DNA from: an uncultured Maribacter sp.
GTDB lineage: Bacteria; Bacteroidota; Bacteroidia; Flavobacteriales; Flavobacteriaceae
Direction of reading: 5' to 3'
Length of the DNA: 64,000 bases
Assembly (NCBI GenBank): GCA_947498505.1
Contig: CANMKG010000004.1
Coordinates: 62,001-126,000, forward strand
Made by a program: the position numbers and the translations under genes. Shown one piece after another: positions 9,647 through 40,348 of the stretch. Each line of letters begins with the position of its first letter. The stretch's first letter is position 1. The notes under the pieces were generated by a model that made no database searches, was not told the origin of the DNA, and saw nothing but the letters and a program-made list of their open reading frames with translations.

Positions 9647-10657
9647 TTATACGTCTGCAGACTTAACTGTTTTAACAATTCTAGCTGCAATTTTGTATGG
9701 GTCTCCGTTAGAAGCAGGTCTTCTGTCTTCTAACCAACCTTTCCATCCTTTTTCAACTGTAATAATAGGAATACGGATAGAAGCTCCTCTATCAGAAACT
9801 CCATAAGAGAAATCTTTAATAGAAGCAGTTTCGTGTAATCCAGTTAAACGTTGGTCATTAAACTCACCGTAAACAGCAATGTGCTCAGCAGTAACAGGTC
9901 TAAATGCTTCACATATTTTCTCATAAGTTTCTTGAGAACCACAAGTTCTTAAAGTTGTGTTTGAGAAGTTTGCGTGCATACCAGAACCATTCCAGTCACC
10001 TTTAATTGGTTTTGGGTGGTAATCAATATAGTATCCGTAGCTTTCAGTTAATCTGTCTAAAAGGTAACGAGCAACCCAGATTTCATCTCCAGCTTTTTTA
10101 GCTCCTTTAGCAAATAATTGAAATTCCCACTGTCCACTAGCAACCTCTTGGTTAATACCTTCAAAATTTAATCCAGCAGCAATACATAAATCTGCATGCT
10201 CTTCAACGAAATCTCTACCGTGAGTGTTTTTTCCACCTACTGAACAGTAGTACATTCCTTGAGGACCAGGGTATCCACCTACAGGGAAACCTAATGGTAA
10301 CTGAGTATCTTTATCCATGATGAAGTACTCTTGCTCAAAACCAAACCAAAAATCATCATCCGCATCATCAATAGTAGCTCTTGAGTTAGACTCATGAGGC
10401 GTTCCATCAGCATTTAATACCTCAGTCATTACTAGGTATCCATCTTTTCTAGCAGGATCAGGATAAATTGCTACAGGCTTTAATAAACAGTCTGAAGATC
10501 CACCTTCAGCTTGTTTTGTAGAACTTCCATCAAAAGACCACATTGCACAATCTTCTAATTTTCCACTAAAATTCTCTTCAACTTTTGTTTTACTTCTTAA
10601 GTTGGCAGTTGGCTTATAACCATCTAGCCATATGTACTCCAATTTTGACTTACTCAT
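9647..10657 (-). CDS. glnII: Glutamine synthetase, type II (beta-grasp domain GS)
   Basis: ATP-dependent synthesis of glutamine from glutamate and ammonia. At 336 residues it is much shorter than GSI (about 470) and matches the eukaryote-like GSII family. Visible motifs are MWSFDGSSTKQAEGGSSD in the beta-grasp/catalytic junction, FGFEQEYF with metal-binding glutamates, the NGSGMHANFS histidine motif, and GASIRIPIITVEKGWKGWLEDRRP near the C-terminus. It is divergent from the type III GS gene with 212 bases between the starts. Its promoter has TATTTTTG at 10699-10706 with no TTG box; in place of one is an ACCCCCC element also seen at glnK. Confidence 0.95.
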   Translation of the reverse strand: MSKSKLEYIWLDGYKPTANLRSKTKVEENFSGKLEDCAMWSFDGSSTKQAEGGSSDCLLKPVAIYPDPARKDGYLVMTEVLNADGTPHESNSRATIDDADDDFWFGFEQEYFIMDKDTQLPLGFPVGGYPGPQGMYYCSVGGKNTHGRDFVEEHADLCIAAGLNFEGINQEVASGQWEFQLFAKGAKKAGDEIWVARYLLDRLTESYGYYIDYHPKPIKGDWNGSGMHANFSNTTLRTCGSQETYEKICEAFRPVTAEHIAVYGEFNDQRLTGLHETASIKDFSYGVSDRGASIRIPIITVEKGWKGWLEDRRPASNGDPYKIAARIVKTVKSADV

Positions 10658-10698
10658 AATTCTTTACACTAGTTAATTATTCTGATTTAAAAGACAAA

Positions 10699-10742
10699 CA
10701 AAAATATAATATTTGTTGAAGTATACTAATTTTTTGGGGGGT
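10699..10742 (-). promoter_or_regulatory. GSII promoter: -7 box TATTTTTG plus upstream ACCCCCC-A6 element
   Basis: On the minus strand TATTTTTG runs 10706-10699, about 42 bases before the GSII ATG. No TTG occurs at the usual distance. ACCCCCC followed by six A begins at 10742, exactly 36 bases upstream of the first T of the -7 box, the same distance as the ACCCCC half-site of the glnK promoter. It looks like an activator half-site; the opposite G-rich half is not obvious here. Confidence 0.6.
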
Positions 10743-10774
10743 AAAATAGACGAAGAATATAATTTTTTGGATTA

Positions 10775-10829
10775 ACCCTTTTTTTTAGGGGGGATTTTGC
10801 CAAATATCTAATAATTGATAGTAATTTTG
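10775..10829 (+). promoter_or_regulatory. GSIII promoter with upstream ACCC-T8-A-GGGGGG palindrome
   Basis: TTG at 10797-10799, 22-base spacer, TAATTTTG at 10822-10829, about 40 bases before the GSIII ATG. Immediately upstream, ACCC (10775-10778), eight T, A, and GGGGGG (10788-10793) form an interrupted palindrome like the one before glnK. Its A is 47 bases from the -7 box, one helical turn further than at glnK and GSII. Confidence 0.6.
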
Positions 10830-10869
10830 TTATATTATTAATGGAGAATTTTTCAAAGAAGTCAATACT

Positions 10870-13056
10870 ATGTCCATATCAAGATTCGAAGCTATATCAG
10901 AAAGTTATAAAAGAAGTAATATTACTCATGAGGAAGATGGTCGTCGTTCAGAATTATTTGGTTTAAATGTCTTTAACGCAGAAAGAATGTTACAGCATCT
11001 AACAAAAGATGCTCTTGAAAGTGTTCAAGGAGCCATTTTTTCTGGAACAAAAATAGACCGAAAAGTAGCGGATCAGGTAGCCGAAGCTATGAAAGGTTGG
11101 GCAATTTCTATGGGGGCAACACATTACACACATTGGTTTCAGCCATTAACTGGGTCCACTGCGGAGAAACATGATGCTTTTTTTGACCTTTTACCAGATG
11201 GTAGAGCACTTGAGAAATTTGGAGGAAGGCAATTGGTACAACAGGAGCCAGACGCTTCTAGTTTTCCAAGTGGAGGAATTAGAAATACTTTTGAAGCCAG
11301 GGGGTACACTGCTTGGGATCCAACATCTCCTGCATTTATTTATGGAACAACACTTTGTATTCCAACCATTTTTGTTTCGTACACCGGAGAGGCTTTGGAT
11401 AATAAAGCACCTCTTTTAAGAGCATTACATGCAGTTGATGAAGCTGCAACAGCAGTCGCTAAATATTTTGATAAAACCGTAACCAAGGTTAGCGCAACGT
11501 TAGGTTGGGAACAAGAATATTTTTTAATAGATAAAGCGCTTGCACAGTCTAGACCAGACATTGTTTTAACAGGTAGAACCTTGTTGGGGCATGCCGCGGC
11601 TAAAGGTCAACAATTGGATGATCATTATTTTGGAGTAATACCAAGTAGAGCTTTAAAATTTATGGGTGATTTAGAGAAAGAATGTACAAAACTTGGAATA
11701 CCCGTAAAAACAAGACATAATGAAGTAGCTCCTAATCAATTTGAGCTTGCGCCGGTTTTTGAAGAAGCAAACTTAGCAGTGGATCATAATCTTCTGCTCA
11801 TGGATGTTATGGAAAAAATTGCTGATAAACATAATTTTAAAGTGCTTTTTCATGAGAAACCTTTTGCCGATGTAAATGGTTCAGGAAAACATAACAACTG
11901 GTCGTTGGCAACAGATACTGGAGTTAATTTATTAAGTCCAGGTTCTACACCAATGAAAAACTTACAATTTTTAACCTTTTTTGTAAATACCATAAAAGCG
12001 GTGGATACTTATGAAGAATTGTTGAGGTCTTCTATTGCGTCTGCCAGTAATGATCATAGATTGGGAGCCAATGAAGCTCCTCCGACAATTTTATCAATCT
12101 TTGTTGGTACTCAATTAAGTAGAGTTTTAGATGAGTTAGAAGGGGTGTCGCAAGGTAAATTATCTCCGCAAGAAAAAACAGAACTTAAACTAAATGTTGT
12201 TGGAAAAATTCCTGAGATACTTTTAGATAATACGGATCGCAATCGTACGTCTCCCTTTGCATTTACGGGAAACAAATTTGAAATGAGAGGAGTGGGCGCT
12301 AAAACAAATTGCGCCAAACCAATGACCATTTTAAATACAATTGTAGCCAAGCAGTTAAAAGATTTTAAAAAAGCTGTTGATGCTTTGGTAGATAAAAAAT
12401 CGCTTAAAAAAGATGAAGCAATTTTTAATGTACTTAGAGAGTATATTAAAACTTCAAAAAGAATTCGTTTTGACGGTGATGGGTATAGTGCTGATTGGGA
12501 AAAAGAAGCAAAACGAAGAAAATTAAGCAATAATAAGAATACCCCTCAGGCCTTAAAAGTGCTTACATCAAAAGATAGTTTAGCGCTTTTTAAGTCAATG
12601 AAAGTAATGAGTGAGATAGAGGTGAAAGCGCGTCATGAAGTAGAACTTGAAGCCTATATTTTGCATATTCAAATTGAAGGAAGAGTTTTAAATGAGTTGG
12701 TGTATAACACTATAATTCCTACTGCTATAGAGTATCAAAATAAATTAATAAAAAATGTAATGGGGCTTAAAGATATTTATGGTGCTGCTCATAAAGGATT
12801 ATCAGAAGGTCAGTTAACCATTATAGAAACTATAGCTGAACATTTAGTTGATCTAAAGAAAAAAACTGATATTATGGTTGATGCAAGAAAAAGCGCCAAC
12901 AAATTAACAGATACCAGTAAAAAGGCAGAAGCTTATTGTGACAATGTTTTGCCTTATTTTGACGAAATAAGATATCATTGTGATCGATTAGAACGATTAA
13001 TTGATGATCAATTATGGCCGTTAACAAAGTACCACGAATTATTGTTTATTAATTAG
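10870..13056 (+). CDS. glnN: Glutamine synthetase, type III
   Basis: A 728-residue GSIII, the large GS form typical of Bacteroidota and cyanobacteria, making glutamine from glutamate, ammonia and ATP. Family marks are the N-terminal FGLNVFNAERM segment, THYTHWFQPLTGSTAEKHD, LGWEQEYFLID with metal-binding acids, the histidine loop KTRHNEVAPNQFELAPVFEE, VNGSGKHNNWS in the ATP/glutamate site, and the extra C-terminal helical domain (about residues 560-728) absent from GSI. Length is normal for GSIII (about 690-730). It is divergent from GSII; both promoters carry the G/C-tract elements shared with glnK, which suggests joint nitrogen control. Confidence 0.96.
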   Translation: MSISRFEAISESYKRSNITHEEDGRRSELFGLNVFNAERMLQHLTKDALESVQGAIFSGTKIDRKVADQVAEAMKGWAISMGATHYTHWFQPLTGSTAEKHDAFFDLLPDGRALEKFGGRQLVQQEPDASSFPSGGIRNTFEARGYTAWDPTSPAFIYGTTLCIPTIFVSYTGEALDNKAPLLRALHAVDEAATAVAKYFDKTVTKVSATLGWEQEYFLIDKALAQSRPDIVLTGRTLLGHAAAKGQQLDDHYFGVIPSRALKFMGDLEKECTKLGIPVKTRHNEVAPNQFELAPVFEEANLAVDHNLLLMDVMEKIADKHNFKVLFHEKPFADVNGSGKHNNWSLATDTGVNLLSPGSTPMKNLQFLTFFVNTIKAVDTYEELLRSSIASASNDHRLGANEAPPTILSIFVGTQLSRVLDELEGVSQGKLSPQEKTELKLNVVGKIPEILLDNTDRNRTSPFAFTGNKFEMRGVGAKTNCAKPMTILNTIVAKQLKDFKKAVDALVDKKSLKKDEAIFNVLREYIKTSKRIRFDGDGYSADWEKEAKRRKLSNNKNTPQALKVLTSKDSLALFKSMKVMSEIEVKARHEVELEAYILHIQIEGRVLNELVYNTIIPTAIEYQNKLIKNVMGLKDIYGAAHKGLSEGQLTIIETIAEHLVDLKKKTDIMVDARKSANKLTDTSKKAEAYCDNVLPYFDEIRYHCDRLERLIDDQLWPLTKYHELLFIN

Positions 13057-37307: not shown

Positions 37308-38330
37308 CTAGAAAGAGTAGATAGCAGCAATCAAGAAAGATGATAAATTTTTAGATGCAACACCATCGTTATCAATAAAGGCATCATCAGAAGCGTTATC
37401 TAATCTAAGTTCAGGCTTGATAATTAAATTCTCAATAGTATAACTCGCAGTTAAAGTAGCGGCAAAAACACTAGAATCTTCAACTCCTGTTCCAATAGCA
37501 CCATAGTCACCCATTTCGGCAAAATATTCACCTCTTATTCCTAAAGTAAAACTGTCAGAAGTTGATAATTGAGGGTATATAGCTGCTCCATAAAAGCCTG
37601 TGCCATCATTATCCTGATAAGCAGCATTAAGACCTAAAAAGAAGTTGTCCGATAAATCAAAACCACCAGTATAATCAATTTCGAAACCTAACTTAGCTTC
37701 ACCGTCATAATAAAAGTTTAAATATTGACCAGCATAACCTAACTGAGCTCCTAATGAATATTCTCCTGTAAGGTTAGAGTTTTCATCTGTAACGTTCATT
37801 ACTGCCAACATTAAGCTAAAATCATCAGATAAAGCAAAATCAGCTTTTACACCAACATGTGAAAAAGGACCATAAGAAAATAGGTACGAAGTACTATAGT
37901 TAAAATTAGCGGCAGGAGAAATAACTTCATACCCCAAGTAAGTATTAAACCTACCAGCAGATAATGTCGTTTTTTCAGAAACATTCCAGTAAGCATACAG
38001 TTGGTTAAGGTTAAATCCTCCAGTGGCATCATCTCCTCTTGGTCCAAATGTTACATCAGCAATAGCACCAGTTTTTTCTCCTTCGTATGTAGCAATTAAG
38101 TTTGCCATACCTAAAGCAAAACCAGTTTCGTTAGCAAAAGAAGTACCTGGAGAAACAAACGTTCCATCTGTTGCTCTATCAGTTGCGCTAAGATTTGTCT
38201 TGTAGTAAGCATCCACTGTACCACTAATTGATACTGCTTTTTTTTCTTCCTCTTCCTGAGCAAACGCTACTGAAGTGGTTAATACTAATGCTGCCATTGC
38301 AGCGAAATTTTTGATTGAAAATAATTTCAT
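37308..38330 (-). CDS. Outer-membrane beta-barrel porin (OmpL/BBP2-like), ammonium-operon associated
   Basis: A 340-residue exported barrel: signal peptide ending SVAFAQ, then EEEEKKAVSISGTVDAYYKTNLS, which is the typical start of BBP2/OmpL-like putative porins. Alternating strands with many Tyr and Phe fill the rest and the chain ends SFLIAAIYSF with the terminal Phe of barrel proteins. It is downstream of glnK and amtB on the same strand (139 bases after amtB). Probably a porin for small nitrogen compounds. A near-perfect ACCCT...AGGGT palindrome sits just before its ATG. Confidence 0.82.
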   Translation of the reverse strand: MKLFSIKNFAAMAALVLTTSVAFAQEEEEKKAVSISGTVDAYYKTNLSATDRATDGTFVSPGTSFANETGFALGMANLIATYEGEKTGAIADVTFGPRGDDATGGFNLNQLYAYWNVSEKTTLSAGRFNTYLGYEVISPAANFNYSTSYLFSYGPFSHVGVKADFALSDDFSLMLAVMNVTDENSNLTGEYSLGAQLGYAGQYLNFYYDGEAKLGFEIDYTGGFDLSDNFFLGLNAAYQDNDGTGFYGAAIYPQLSTSDSFTLGIRGEYFAEMGDYGAIGTGVEDSSVFAATLTASYTIENLIIKPELRLDNASDDAFIDNDGVASKNLSSFLIAAIYSF

Positions 38331-38468: not shown

Positions 38469-39707
38469 TTAGTGCTGATTCATTCTAAAGTCAGCATAAG
38501 CATCCATTCCATGTTCGTGGATGTCTAAACCTTCAAGTTCTTCTTCTTTAGATACTCTTAAGCCTAAAGTTGCTTTTAGTGTTCCTAAAATTATAAGTGA
38601 AGTAACTATACAGAAACCTCCGATTATTGCAACACCAGATAATTGTGTCATAAACTGACTTACACCAGCTTTGTCTCCAAATAATCCTACTGCTAAAGTT
38701 CCCCATATTCCGCAGATAAGGTGTACCGCAATAGCACCAACTGGGTCATCTAGTTTTAACTTGTCAATAAGAGCAACAGCTAAAACAATTAATAAACCAG
38801 CAAGGAAACCGATAACAACAGCTTCGTTAGGAGACATTAAATCTGCACCAGCAGTAATACCTACTAAACCACCTAAGATTCCGTTTAAGAACATTGTTAA
38901 ATCTAAGTTTTTGTATAGAATAGTAGAAAGGATAAACGCTCCAAAACCACCAGCAGCTGCAGCTAAACTTGTAGTAACTAATACTAGTGAAGTTAATTCT
39001 GGGTCAGCAGAAAGTACAGAACCTCCGTTGAAACCAAACCAACCTAACCAAAGTATTAAAACACCAGCAGTTGCTAAAGGTATGTTGTGTCCAGGAATCG
39101 CTTTTGGTTTTCCGTCGCTACCAAATTTACCAATTCTAGCACCTAATAGCGCTACCGCAACTAACGCTGCCCATCCACCAACAGAGTGAACTAATGTTGA
39201 ACCAGCAAAGTCATAGAATCCCCATGAGTCTAAGAATCCTCCACCCCATTTCCAAGCACCTACTATTGGGTATACTAAACCAACATAGATTACTGTGAAA
39301 ATCATGAAAGAACCAATTTTAATACGCTCTGCTACTGCCCCAGAAACAATTGTTGCAGCTGTAGCGGCGAACATTCCTTGAAAAAGAAAATCTGTCCACC
39401 ATGTATATCCGCCATCAGCATAATCTGGTGTCATTCCTCCTTCAGGAGCTCCAATACCAAATCCAGCGAATTTTAAAATCCCAGCATCTCCATCTTCAAA
39501 GCCAGGGTACATTAAGTTAAAACCAAATGCATAATAAAGTAATAATCCACCAGTAATGATGAAAATGTTTTTAAATAATATGTTTATTGTATTTTTTTGT
39601 CTTGTAAGACCTATTTCTAAAAAAGCAAATCCTGTGTGCATGAAGAATACTAAGGCAGTCGCCACCATCATCCATACATTGTTAGCTGTAAATAATCCTG
39701 CGTCCAT
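38469..39707 (-). CDS. amtB: Ammonium transporter, Amt/Rh family
   Basis: A 412-residue, 11-TM ammonium channel. Motifs: VFFMHTGFAFLEIGLTRQKN in TM1, GFNLMYPG, FQGMFAATAATIVSGAVAERIK, DFAGSTLVHSVGGWAALV (the first pore His), and LGWFGFNGGS; the second conserved His is near AVHLICGIWG. There is no signal peptide, so the N-terminus resembles the Amt form lacking the extra leader. glnK precedes it by 28 bases, the standard regulator-channel pair. The C-terminal tail keeps GLDIHEHGMDAYADF, typical for PII binding. Confidence 0.96.
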   Translation of the reverse strand: MDAGLFTANNVWMMVATALVFFMHTGFAFLEIGLTRQKNTINILFKNIFIITGGLLLYYAFGFNLMYPGFEDGDAGILKFAGFGIGAPEGGMTPDYADGGYTWWTDFLFQGMFAATAATIVSGAVAERIKIGSFMIFTVIYVGLVYPIVGAWKWGGGFLDSWGFYDFAGSTLVHSVGGWAALVAVALLGARIGKFGSDGKPKAIPGHNIPLATAGVLILWLGWFGFNGGSVLSADPELTSLVLVTTSLAAAAGGFGAFILSTILYKNLDLTMFLNGILGGLVGITAGADLMSPNEAVVIGFLAGLLIVLAVALIDKLKLDDPVGAIAVHLICGIWGTLAVGLFGDKAGVSQFMTQLSGVAIIGGFCIVTSLIILGTLKATLGLRVSKEEELEGLDIHEHGMDAYADFRMNQH

Positions 39708-39735: not shown

Positions 39736-40074
39736 TTAGTTGATACCGGCTTGACCGTTTTCTTTGGTTCTTATTCTATAAGCTTCTGAAACTTCGCTTA
39801 CGAAAATTTTACCGTCTCCAACATTTCCTGTATATGCAGAATCTAACAGGGCATTAACTGTGCGATCTAAAAATTCGTCAGATACTACAATAGATAAGTA
39901 TCTTCTTTGAATGTCAGTGGTACTATATGTTATACCTCTGTAAACATGTCCTTGTTTTTCATTTCCAACTCCAGTCACATCCCAGTAACTAAAGAAGTTT
40001 ACCTCGATTTGATGCAATGCCTCTTTGACTTCATCAAACTTTGATTTTCTGATAATTGCCTCGATTTTTTTCAT
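39736..40074 (-). CDS. glnK: PII nitrogen regulatory protein (GlnK)
   Basis: A 112-residue PII trimer subunit that senses 2-oxoglutarate and ADP/ATP and blocks AmtB. The core matches PII: KKIEAIIRKSKFDEVKEALH, VTGVGNEKQGHVYRGITY T-loop with the uridylylation-equivalent Tyr at position 50, and VGDGKIFVSEVSEAYRIRTKE. The strand after helix 1 reads NFFSYWDVTG in place of the usual GITVTEVKG, and T-loop DIQRRYLSIVV differs from DFLPKVKIE-type. This is a divergent branch common in Bacteroidota. It is the first gene of glnK-amtB, perhaps with the porin. Confidence 0.93.
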   Translation of the reverse strand: MKKIEAIIRKSKFDEVKEALHQIEVNFFSYWDVTGVGNEKQGHVYRGITYSTTDIQRRYLSIVVSDEFLDRTVNALLDSAYTGNVGDGKIFVSEVSEAYRIRTKENGQAGIN

Positions 40075-40096
40075 GTGTTATTTGTTTAGATGATGC

Positions 40097-40140
40097 CAAA
40101 TATATGTTAAAAAGATTATACCCCTAAAAAAATAGGGGGT
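40097..40140 (-). promoter_or_regulatory. glnK promoter: TATATTTG with ACCCCC-TATTTTTTTA-GGGGT palindrome
   Basis: On the minus strand TATATTTG runs 40104-40097, about 23 bases before the glnK ATG, with no TTG in the -33 region. Instead a palindrome occupies 40120-40140 (ACCCC on the plus side, GGGGG on the other, ten A/T bases between), centred about 41 bases upstream of the expected start of transcription. That is where a class II activator binds. The A of ACCCCC is 36 bases from the first T of the -7 box, as at GSII. Confidence 0.65.
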
Positions 40141-40172
40141 ATCGATGCTATTTTTATTTTAAATTCAAATTG

Positions 40173-40192
40173 ACCCTAAATTTATTGTGGGT
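40173..40192. promoter_or_regulatory. Distal ACCC-N12-GGGT site upstream of glnK
   Basis: ACCCTAAATTTATTGTGGGT, 20 bases, about 52 bp (five helical turns) further from the promoter than the proximal palindrome, so on the same DNA face. Probably a second operator for the same regulator. Confidence 0.5.
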
Positions 40193-40348
40193 ATGATAAA
40201 TTATAATAAATATTTTGAAGTATCCGCAATGAAAAAGATAGGGGTGTGTAGATTATTTGCAATTATTTTAGATGAATAACACAATATTTTGAGGATAATG
40301 CAATTGAAAAGGACAAACCTTGCGAATATTTACTTTATAAAACGGACG

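Follow-up and report, generated by a model that had tools for sequence, protein, structure and literature searches.

Two glutamine synthetase genes, of type II (GSII) and type III (GSIII), are transcribed away from each other in the window, by which we mean the whole stretch of 64,000 nucleotides analysed here from an uncultured Maribacter sp. An earlier note, made from the letters alone, had singled out two G/C tracts between these genes and a palindrome of the same kind ahead of glnK-amtB, and had proposed that they mark the site of a nitrogen regulator not yet described in Bacteroidota. Do these tracts belong to one regulatory element, which genes does it accompany, and what kind of regulator would use it? 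The host genome has 4.08 Mb, and its closest relatives by GSII are uncultured Flavobacteriaceae and Aquimarina. Comparison with relatives indicates that the element is probably the predicted binding site of a new nitrogen regulator.

Paired palindromic sites in two promoter regions of the window

Direct reading of the window places TTTTTTGGGGGGT at 10730-10742 and ACCCTTTTTTTTAGGGGGG at 10775-10793, exactly where the earlier note had located its G/C tracts. The features of both regions are as follows:

9647 to 10657, minus strand: glutamine synthetase type II gene (Pfam PF00120 and PF03951; NCBIfam GlnII, E 6.4e-117, below the curated cut-off)
10699 to 10706, minus strand: putative GSII -7 box TATTTTTG, which fits the TAnnTTTG consensus of F. 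psychrophilum as given in the accessible part of PMC9723704
10722 to 10742, minus strand: proximal GSII site, matrix score only 8.9
10775 to 10795, no strand assigned: palindromic site ACCCTTTTTTTTAGGGGGGAT, matrix score 17.5, common to the divergent GSII and GSIII promoters
10822 to 10829, plus strand: putative GSIII -7 box TAATTTTG
10870 to 13056, plus strand: glutamine synthetase type III gene (Pfam PF12437 GSIII_N, E 3e-75)
37308 to 38330, minus strand: BBP2-type outer-membrane porin gene (PF07642, E 7.5e-62)
38469 to 39707, minus strand: amtB ammonium transporter gene (PF00909, E 1.7e-113), next in the likely glnK operon
39736 to 40074, minus strand: glnK, P-II protein gene (Pfam PF00543)
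40097 to 40104, minus strand: putative glnK -7 box TATATTTG, a TAnnTTTG match
40120 to 40140, minus strand: proximal glnK palindrome ACCCCCTATTTTTTTAGGGGT, matrix score 25.7
40173 to 40192, minus strand: distal glnK site ACCCACAATAAATTTAGGGT, matrix score 16.8

The distances to the -7 boxes are those that had been claimed. On the GSII strand 36 bp lie between the A of ACCCCCC (10742) and the first T (10706) of TATTTTTG, and on the GSIII strand 47 bp lie between the A at 10775 and the T at 10822 of TAATTTTG. The glnK palindrome, ACCCC-N11-GGGGT, is again 36 bp from its box (40104-40097). Two features are additions to the earlier note. One is the second glnK site, 52 bp further upstream than the proximal one and 88 bp from the -7 box. 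The other is a pair like that of glnK made up of 10722-10742 and 10775-10795, with 53 bp from A to A, or 51 bp by the palindrome matrix. The site at 10775-10795 is thereby the distal site of GSII, 89 bp from the GSII box. In the proximal GSII site ACCCCCC (10742-10736) is the strong half, and the second half is degenerate.

Judging from gene order and strand, the porin gene may close the glnK-amtB operon. At loci of relatives (L156, L180, L214) genes of porin-like secreted proteins, assigned by eye, separate the element from amtB or glnK. Together with the porin that follows glnK-amtB in the window, they hint at an outer-membrane ammonium channel.

As a bare palindrome the motif is no more frequent in the host than expected by chance. 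The pattern ACCC-N6..14-GGGG occurs three times in the window, with one palindrome counted on both its strands, where shuffles predict 2.86, and ACCC-N13-GGGT has 19 occurrences genome-wide as compared to 26 of the reversed control pattern. The case therefore rests on comparison between genomes. Counting of bare palindromes was dropped, models that combine two sites with a -7 box being far more specific. A perfect palindrome, ACCCGAACAAATTGTTCGGGT, was seen in three copies near contig ends of the host genome (L011, L012 and G000:C8:172-192), where it is perhaps a repeat or a mobile element.

The element is conserved in relatives and accompanies GSIII

We took the 80 closest GSII loci of 585 relatives and refined a palindrome matrix on GSII and glnK promoters with no spacing imposed. 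By this matrix a site is present at 73 of the 80 loci. All 74 carriers (these loci and the window) score at least 12.6, and the seven non-carriers at most 7.5; a score of 12.5 is reached by 2.5% of 243 shuffled promoters, and a score of 8, close to the 8.9 of the window's proximal GSII site, by 21%. GSII and glnK promoters often have two units of the form ACCCC-N10-GGGGT, and the length of a site is 17-22 bp (mode 20). Two sites were detected in 57 of 111 promoters (81 GSII and 30 glnK, window included), and every one of these 57 pairs is spaced 51-54 bp, about five helical turns. The G/C tracts of orthologous glutamine synthetase and glnK regions, on whose conservation the earlier note had staked its proposal, are thus conserved, and with them the phased element that it had described as shared by the glutamine synthetase and glnK-amtB promoters.

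Presence of the site at GSII follows the neighbouring gene. A divergent GSIII was found at 71 of the 79 GSII loci for which an upstream gene was called, and the site is present at every one of these 71. The other two site-bearing loci are L075 and one for which no gene was called upstream. The seven GSII loci that lack the site (L058, L064, L069, L087, L091, L093, L094) have no GSIII within the fetched locus, and Winogradskyella wandonensis is among the GSII loci with neither site nor adjacent GSIII. The association between site and GSIII neighbour is strong (Fisher p 4e-10). Since the site is missing where GSIII is absent beside GSII, the element seems to belong chiefly to GSIII.

Upstream of GSIII in the GSII-derived loci a site score of at least 13 was obtained in 71 of 72 cases. 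GSIII genes with no GSII neighbour may bear the site as well (L160, L179, L181 and L183, loci picked by a match to the motif model). The complete GSIII set comprises 116 upstream regions, of which 41 come from loci matched by R1, a 102-position two-site promoter model for whose training 30 of the 57 pairs were used, and three (window, L127, L131) represent the promoter of the window itself. The figure of 111 site-bearing regions among these 116 is therefore inflated, by the loci picked with R1 and by the threefold presence of the window's own promoter. Ahead of glnK the site was found in only 16 of 30 upstream regions at a score of 8 and in 14 of 30 at a score of 16, and the site-less ones often have another gene immediately upstream.

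Sites keep a helical register with the -7 box

Distances from ACCC to TAnnTTTG were counted in non-redundant promoters (less than 70% identity over 140 bp), which left 59 of 81 for GSII, 29 of 30 for glnK and 86 of 116 for GSIII. The 59 GSII promoters yield 32 promoter-distance counts at 33-37 bp (200 dinucleotide shuffles: mean 0.14, maximum 2) and 33 at 86-91 bp (shuffle mean 0.15, maximum 3). For glnK nine counts fall into each of these ranges (shuffles 0.11 and 0.04, respectively). GSIII promoters have three preferred distances, with 10 counts at 33-37 bp, 14 at 46-49 bp and eight at 55-58 bp, and the 47 bp of the window belong to the most frequent of them. The 73 GSIII loci that were not chosen by motif (50 non-redundant) give five, seven and six counts at these distances and none at either 38-45 or 50-54 bp. 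Those chosen by the model give five, seven and two, with one count at 38-45 bp and none at 50-54 bp. In 64 of the 111 site-bearing GSIII promoters there is no exact TAnnTTTG within 25-70 bp.

Given these distance classes, the 36 and 47 bp of the window correspond to two positions on a single ladder whose rungs are about 11 bp apart, and the remark that the GSIII site is set one helical turn further away is borne out by the GSIII promoters of relatives. Such a ladder would be hard to obtain without a protein that sits on a fixed face of the helix.

According to the accessible part of PMC9723704 the -7 box of F. psychrophilum spans -12 to -5, which puts the centre of the proximal unit at about -38.5 and that of the distal unit at about -90.5. 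The earlier note had also observed that GSII and glnK lack the -33 TTG, and had taken this as the mark of activator-dependent promoters. The observation itself is correct. As a sign of activator dependence it does not hold, the TTG being likewise missing from 79% of the 199 control promoters drawn from the same loci. A TTG 20-23 bp above the box was found in 10 of 48 GSII, one of nine glnK and four of 30 GSIII promoters, compared to 21% of the controls, and this argument for activation was dropped.

Genes associated with the element in the family

In the host genome the top R1 matches are glnK (8e-14) and GSII (2e-9), followed by ald (3.5e-6) and gltB (0.003). Matches at pairs used for training R1 are by construction. 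The best single sites at host ald and gltB are hairpins followed by T-rich stretches, that is, they are terminator-like; the regulon in the window's genome may therefore consist of just two promoters. Upstream of host ald (L129, G000:C3, around position 340,340) there is a strong terminator-like ACCCCTAAATTTTTAGGGGT palindrome, and a further ACCCC was seen by eye about 52 bp from it. This palindrome may be terminator and operator simultaneously.

Among the matches listed, an R1 match with E of at most 0.001 occurs in 49 of 60 family genomes. Sixty R1 loci, a part of all places matched by R1, were fetched. In 56 of them at least one gene within the fetched stretch is related to GSII, GSIII, AmtB, GlnK, GltB or Ald, and the four remaining matches lie at unrelated genes. 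A pair of sites precedes ald in G014 and G010 (53 and 51 bp apart; L176 and L177). Matches to the element are also present in G009, G010 and G013, genomes with no P-II detected, so that P-II is not required for the element to occur.

GSII or GSIII often have as neighbours, near a calcium/sodium antiporter gene, two genes that by eye resemble a BlaI/MecI repressor and a BlaR1/MecR1 peptidase (L161, L174, L178, L184, L185, L186, L188). In Prevotella ruminicola amtB, glnK, asnB, gdhA, glnN and gltBD undergo a strong ammonium-dependent change, the direction of which is contradictory in the accessible part of the source (PMC5552732).

Half-sites ahead of GSIII across the class Bacteroidia

Of 80 genomes sampled from the class, 75 have GSIII. 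We used 70 of the 78 GSIII matches, leaving out the own genome, G076, G126 and G100 as well as partial matches, one each in G083 and G089 and two in G113; 40 of the 70 upstream regions were positioned by the start of the Pfam domain rather than by a checked start codon. GGGGT and ACCC stand 33-34 bp apart, which is the inner half-site distance of the Flavobacteriaceae pair, in 14 of the 70 (shuffle mean 0.06, maximum 2 in 300). These 14 regions come from 11 families besides Flavobacteriaceae. Aligned with eight other class upstream regions they yield TAGGGGGTGTTAATAAAA, located some 48 bp upstream of a TAnnTTTG box, the GGGG..GTT in this alignment being partly by construction because eight of the 22 sequences were picked for it. 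In the non-redundant class set GGGT lies 48-50 bp above TAnnTTTG in 17 of 44 scored distances, and several upstream regions have an ACCCC half 13-18 bp above the box. Most of the 70 regions have neither the pair nor the extended half-site; the element is thus either widespread and patchy, or its site drifts.

In two genomes (G068 and G110; L429 and L430) the element stands ahead of a GSII gene that is followed by GSIII. The strongest matches of R2, a model for the class, are GSIII promoters. Twenty further places matched by R2 include three GSII-GSIII gene pairs (L429, L430 and L431), and the other 17 have no gene that matches any of the six reference proteins. A single ancestral activator may have served much of Bacteroidia through GGGGTGTTAATAA/ACCCC half-sites in register with the -7 box, mainly at GSIII, independently of P-II and outside NtrC, NtcA, GlnR/TnrA and AmtR; we regard this extension as tentative, and somewhat more open to doubt than not.

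Comparison with known nitrogen-control systems

NtrC and sigma-54 control glnA and glnK-amtB from paired upstream palindromes, and in this respect the arrangement described here is similar. However, the TGGCAC-N5-TTGCW element of that system is missing. With up to three mismatches allowed it has no match in 10658-10869 or in 40075-40348 (223 matches across the searched DNA). A sigma-54/NtrC promoter was ruled out, as neither region has a -24/-12 element and a sigma-A type -7 box is found instead.

Tandem activator sites are known from promoters that combine a class II with an upstream CRP position, and NtcA governs glnA, amt and glnB. The sites described here resemble such an arrangement in lying near -40 and -91, 52 bp apart and on the same face of the helix. 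The NtcA site is GTA-N8-TAC and the CRP/FNR site TGTGA-N6-TCACA, whereas the half-sites here are ACCCC and GGGGT with about 10 bp between them. Half-sites of CRP/FNR are spaced about 11 bp from centre to centre; those of the present element have centres 12-17 bp apart (mode 15) and do not match that spacing. In a search with HTH_Crp_2, G052, which has the element and is 90% complete, gave no match, and five other element-bearing genomes gave one to four.

GlnR and TnrA of Bacillus are MerR-family regulators of glutamine synthetase and ammonium transport. They share with the present element an inverted repeat with an AT-rich centre and the same kinds of target, but their box is TGTNAN7TNACA, and the small MerR protein found here is encoded both in genomes with the element and in genomes without it and has a promoter of its own with no site. 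Sensing by P-II and AmtB is similar insofar as glnK-amtB is one target of the element, and differs in that the element also occurs in genomes with no P-II detected.

A literature search, which covered mostly partial abstracts and few subscription papers, brought up no nitrogen regulator or operator of this kind in Bacteroidota, and no such element is described in the accessible parts of PMC5552732, PMC9723704, PMC7366714 and PMC12316311. With the sigma-54 pattern absent and no comparable Bacteroidota regulator in the literature thus searched, the proposal of a new nitrogen regulator is plausible.

Activator, repressor or RNA hairpin

The reading that we favour, and consider fairly likely, is that the element is a cis-acting operator for nitrogen assimilation, used by a nitrogen-responsive activator of which two dimers would occupy one face of the DNA. 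Each unit would be an inverted repeat of about 20 bp, T-ACCC(C/T)-N~10-(A/G)GGGT-A, and two units five helical turns (51-54 bp) apart would stand upstream of a sigma-A type -7 box. A candidate dimeric transcription factor would bind each unit, both dimers facing the same side, and at nitrogen shortage the dimers would recruit RNA polymerase; the proximal dimer may replace the -33 contact and the distal one may assist. One factor would in this way serve GSII, GSIII, glnK-amtB and gltB, with ald added in some genomes. That nitrogen is the signal is suggested by the target genes. The phasing, the five-turn pair and the positions of sites at about -38, -50, -60 and -90 on one face fit an activator that touches polymerase.

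The main rival is a repressor with paired operators that would be released at nitrogen shortage, its proximal operator covering the -33 region and its distal one aiding by a loop of 52 bp. Paired operators at whole helical turns are typical of looping repressors, which the paired sites match. Protein bound at the proximal site, which extends from about -48 to -29, would block polymerase, and the frequency of the -33 element is close to that in control promoters. Against this, GSIII sites shift by single helical turns, and the strong half-site of other families lies near -60, some 48 bp upstream of the -7 box. An activator accounts for both observations better than steric block does, and we consider repression unlikely. 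That the palindromes act in RNA, as intrinsic terminators or other hairpins, we hold to be very improbable. The terminator-like sites at host ald and gltB are of this form; the sites between the divergent GSII and GSIII, in contrast, are upstream of both putative -7 boxes, so that neither transcript should include them, and their distance to the -7 box is fixed. A search of both regions against Rfam gave nothing above the gathering score, the single row being mir-44 (E 0.22), inside the GSII gene.

Candidate regulators

If an activator of the kind favoured above uses these sites, which protein might it be? Among the candidates searched, no regulator gene can be linked to the element through its place in the genome, through a site in the promoter ahead of it or through clean co-occurrence. 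By eye there is no transcription-factor gene within about 1.5 kb of GSIII at 30 class-level loci, and none of the scored promoters of Lrp, CRP and MerR genes has the site, several loci being without a scorable gene. CRP, a small MerR and an ald-linked Lrp were each tested as the regulator, and none fits well.

Operators of the MerR family, ACC(T/C)...(A/G)GGT, are 18-21 bp long, a length that fits the usual 19-21 bp of the present sites. MerR_1 matches were found in 60 of 60 family genomes, and the 30 small MerR proteins that were read have 109-111 amino acids and are highly conserved. Nevertheless, it is improbable that the regulator is a small GlnR/TnrA-like MerR protein with an unusual site. 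The small protein is present in 11 of 11 genomes with no model match, whereas G048, which has a match and is 82% complete, shows only a MerR of about 300 amino acids. At fully listed loci its gene lies, by eye, between M23-peptidase-like and LemA-like genes, an envelope-type setting, and the site was found in none of the 24 operon promoters scored.

An Lrp/AsnC protein encoded near ald (group A) is a still less probable regulator. Its gene lies near ald or, by eye, a metallopeptidase-like gene in L173, L176, L360, L372 and L373, and an orthologue (at least 60% identity) is encoded by 41 of the 49 genomes that have a match, as compared to four of the 11 that have none (Fisher p 0.003). However, the protein is absent from eight of the 49 matched genomes, including G007, G012, G042 and G054 with matches at GSIII, and W. 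wandonensis, with a GSII locus devoid of both GSIII and the site, encodes it. The eight also comprise G041 (93% complete), G051 (88% complete) and G027, whose listed matches lie away from nitrogen genes. Another Lrp group is found both with and without the element.

Meaning for nitrogen control in Bacteroidota

Promoter-level nitrogen switching in Bacteroidota, a group dominant in the gut and the sea, is absent from the partly accessible literature that we searched. The operator described here comes with exact bases, spacing and targets and is therefore directly testable, as a bait for the regulator, in the design of reporters and as a marker for genome searches. GSII loci with neither GSIII nor site, including that of Winogradskyella wandonensis, are useful contrasts for finding the regulator, and the absence of the site where GSIII is absent beside GSII suggests that the switch mainly serves GSIII.
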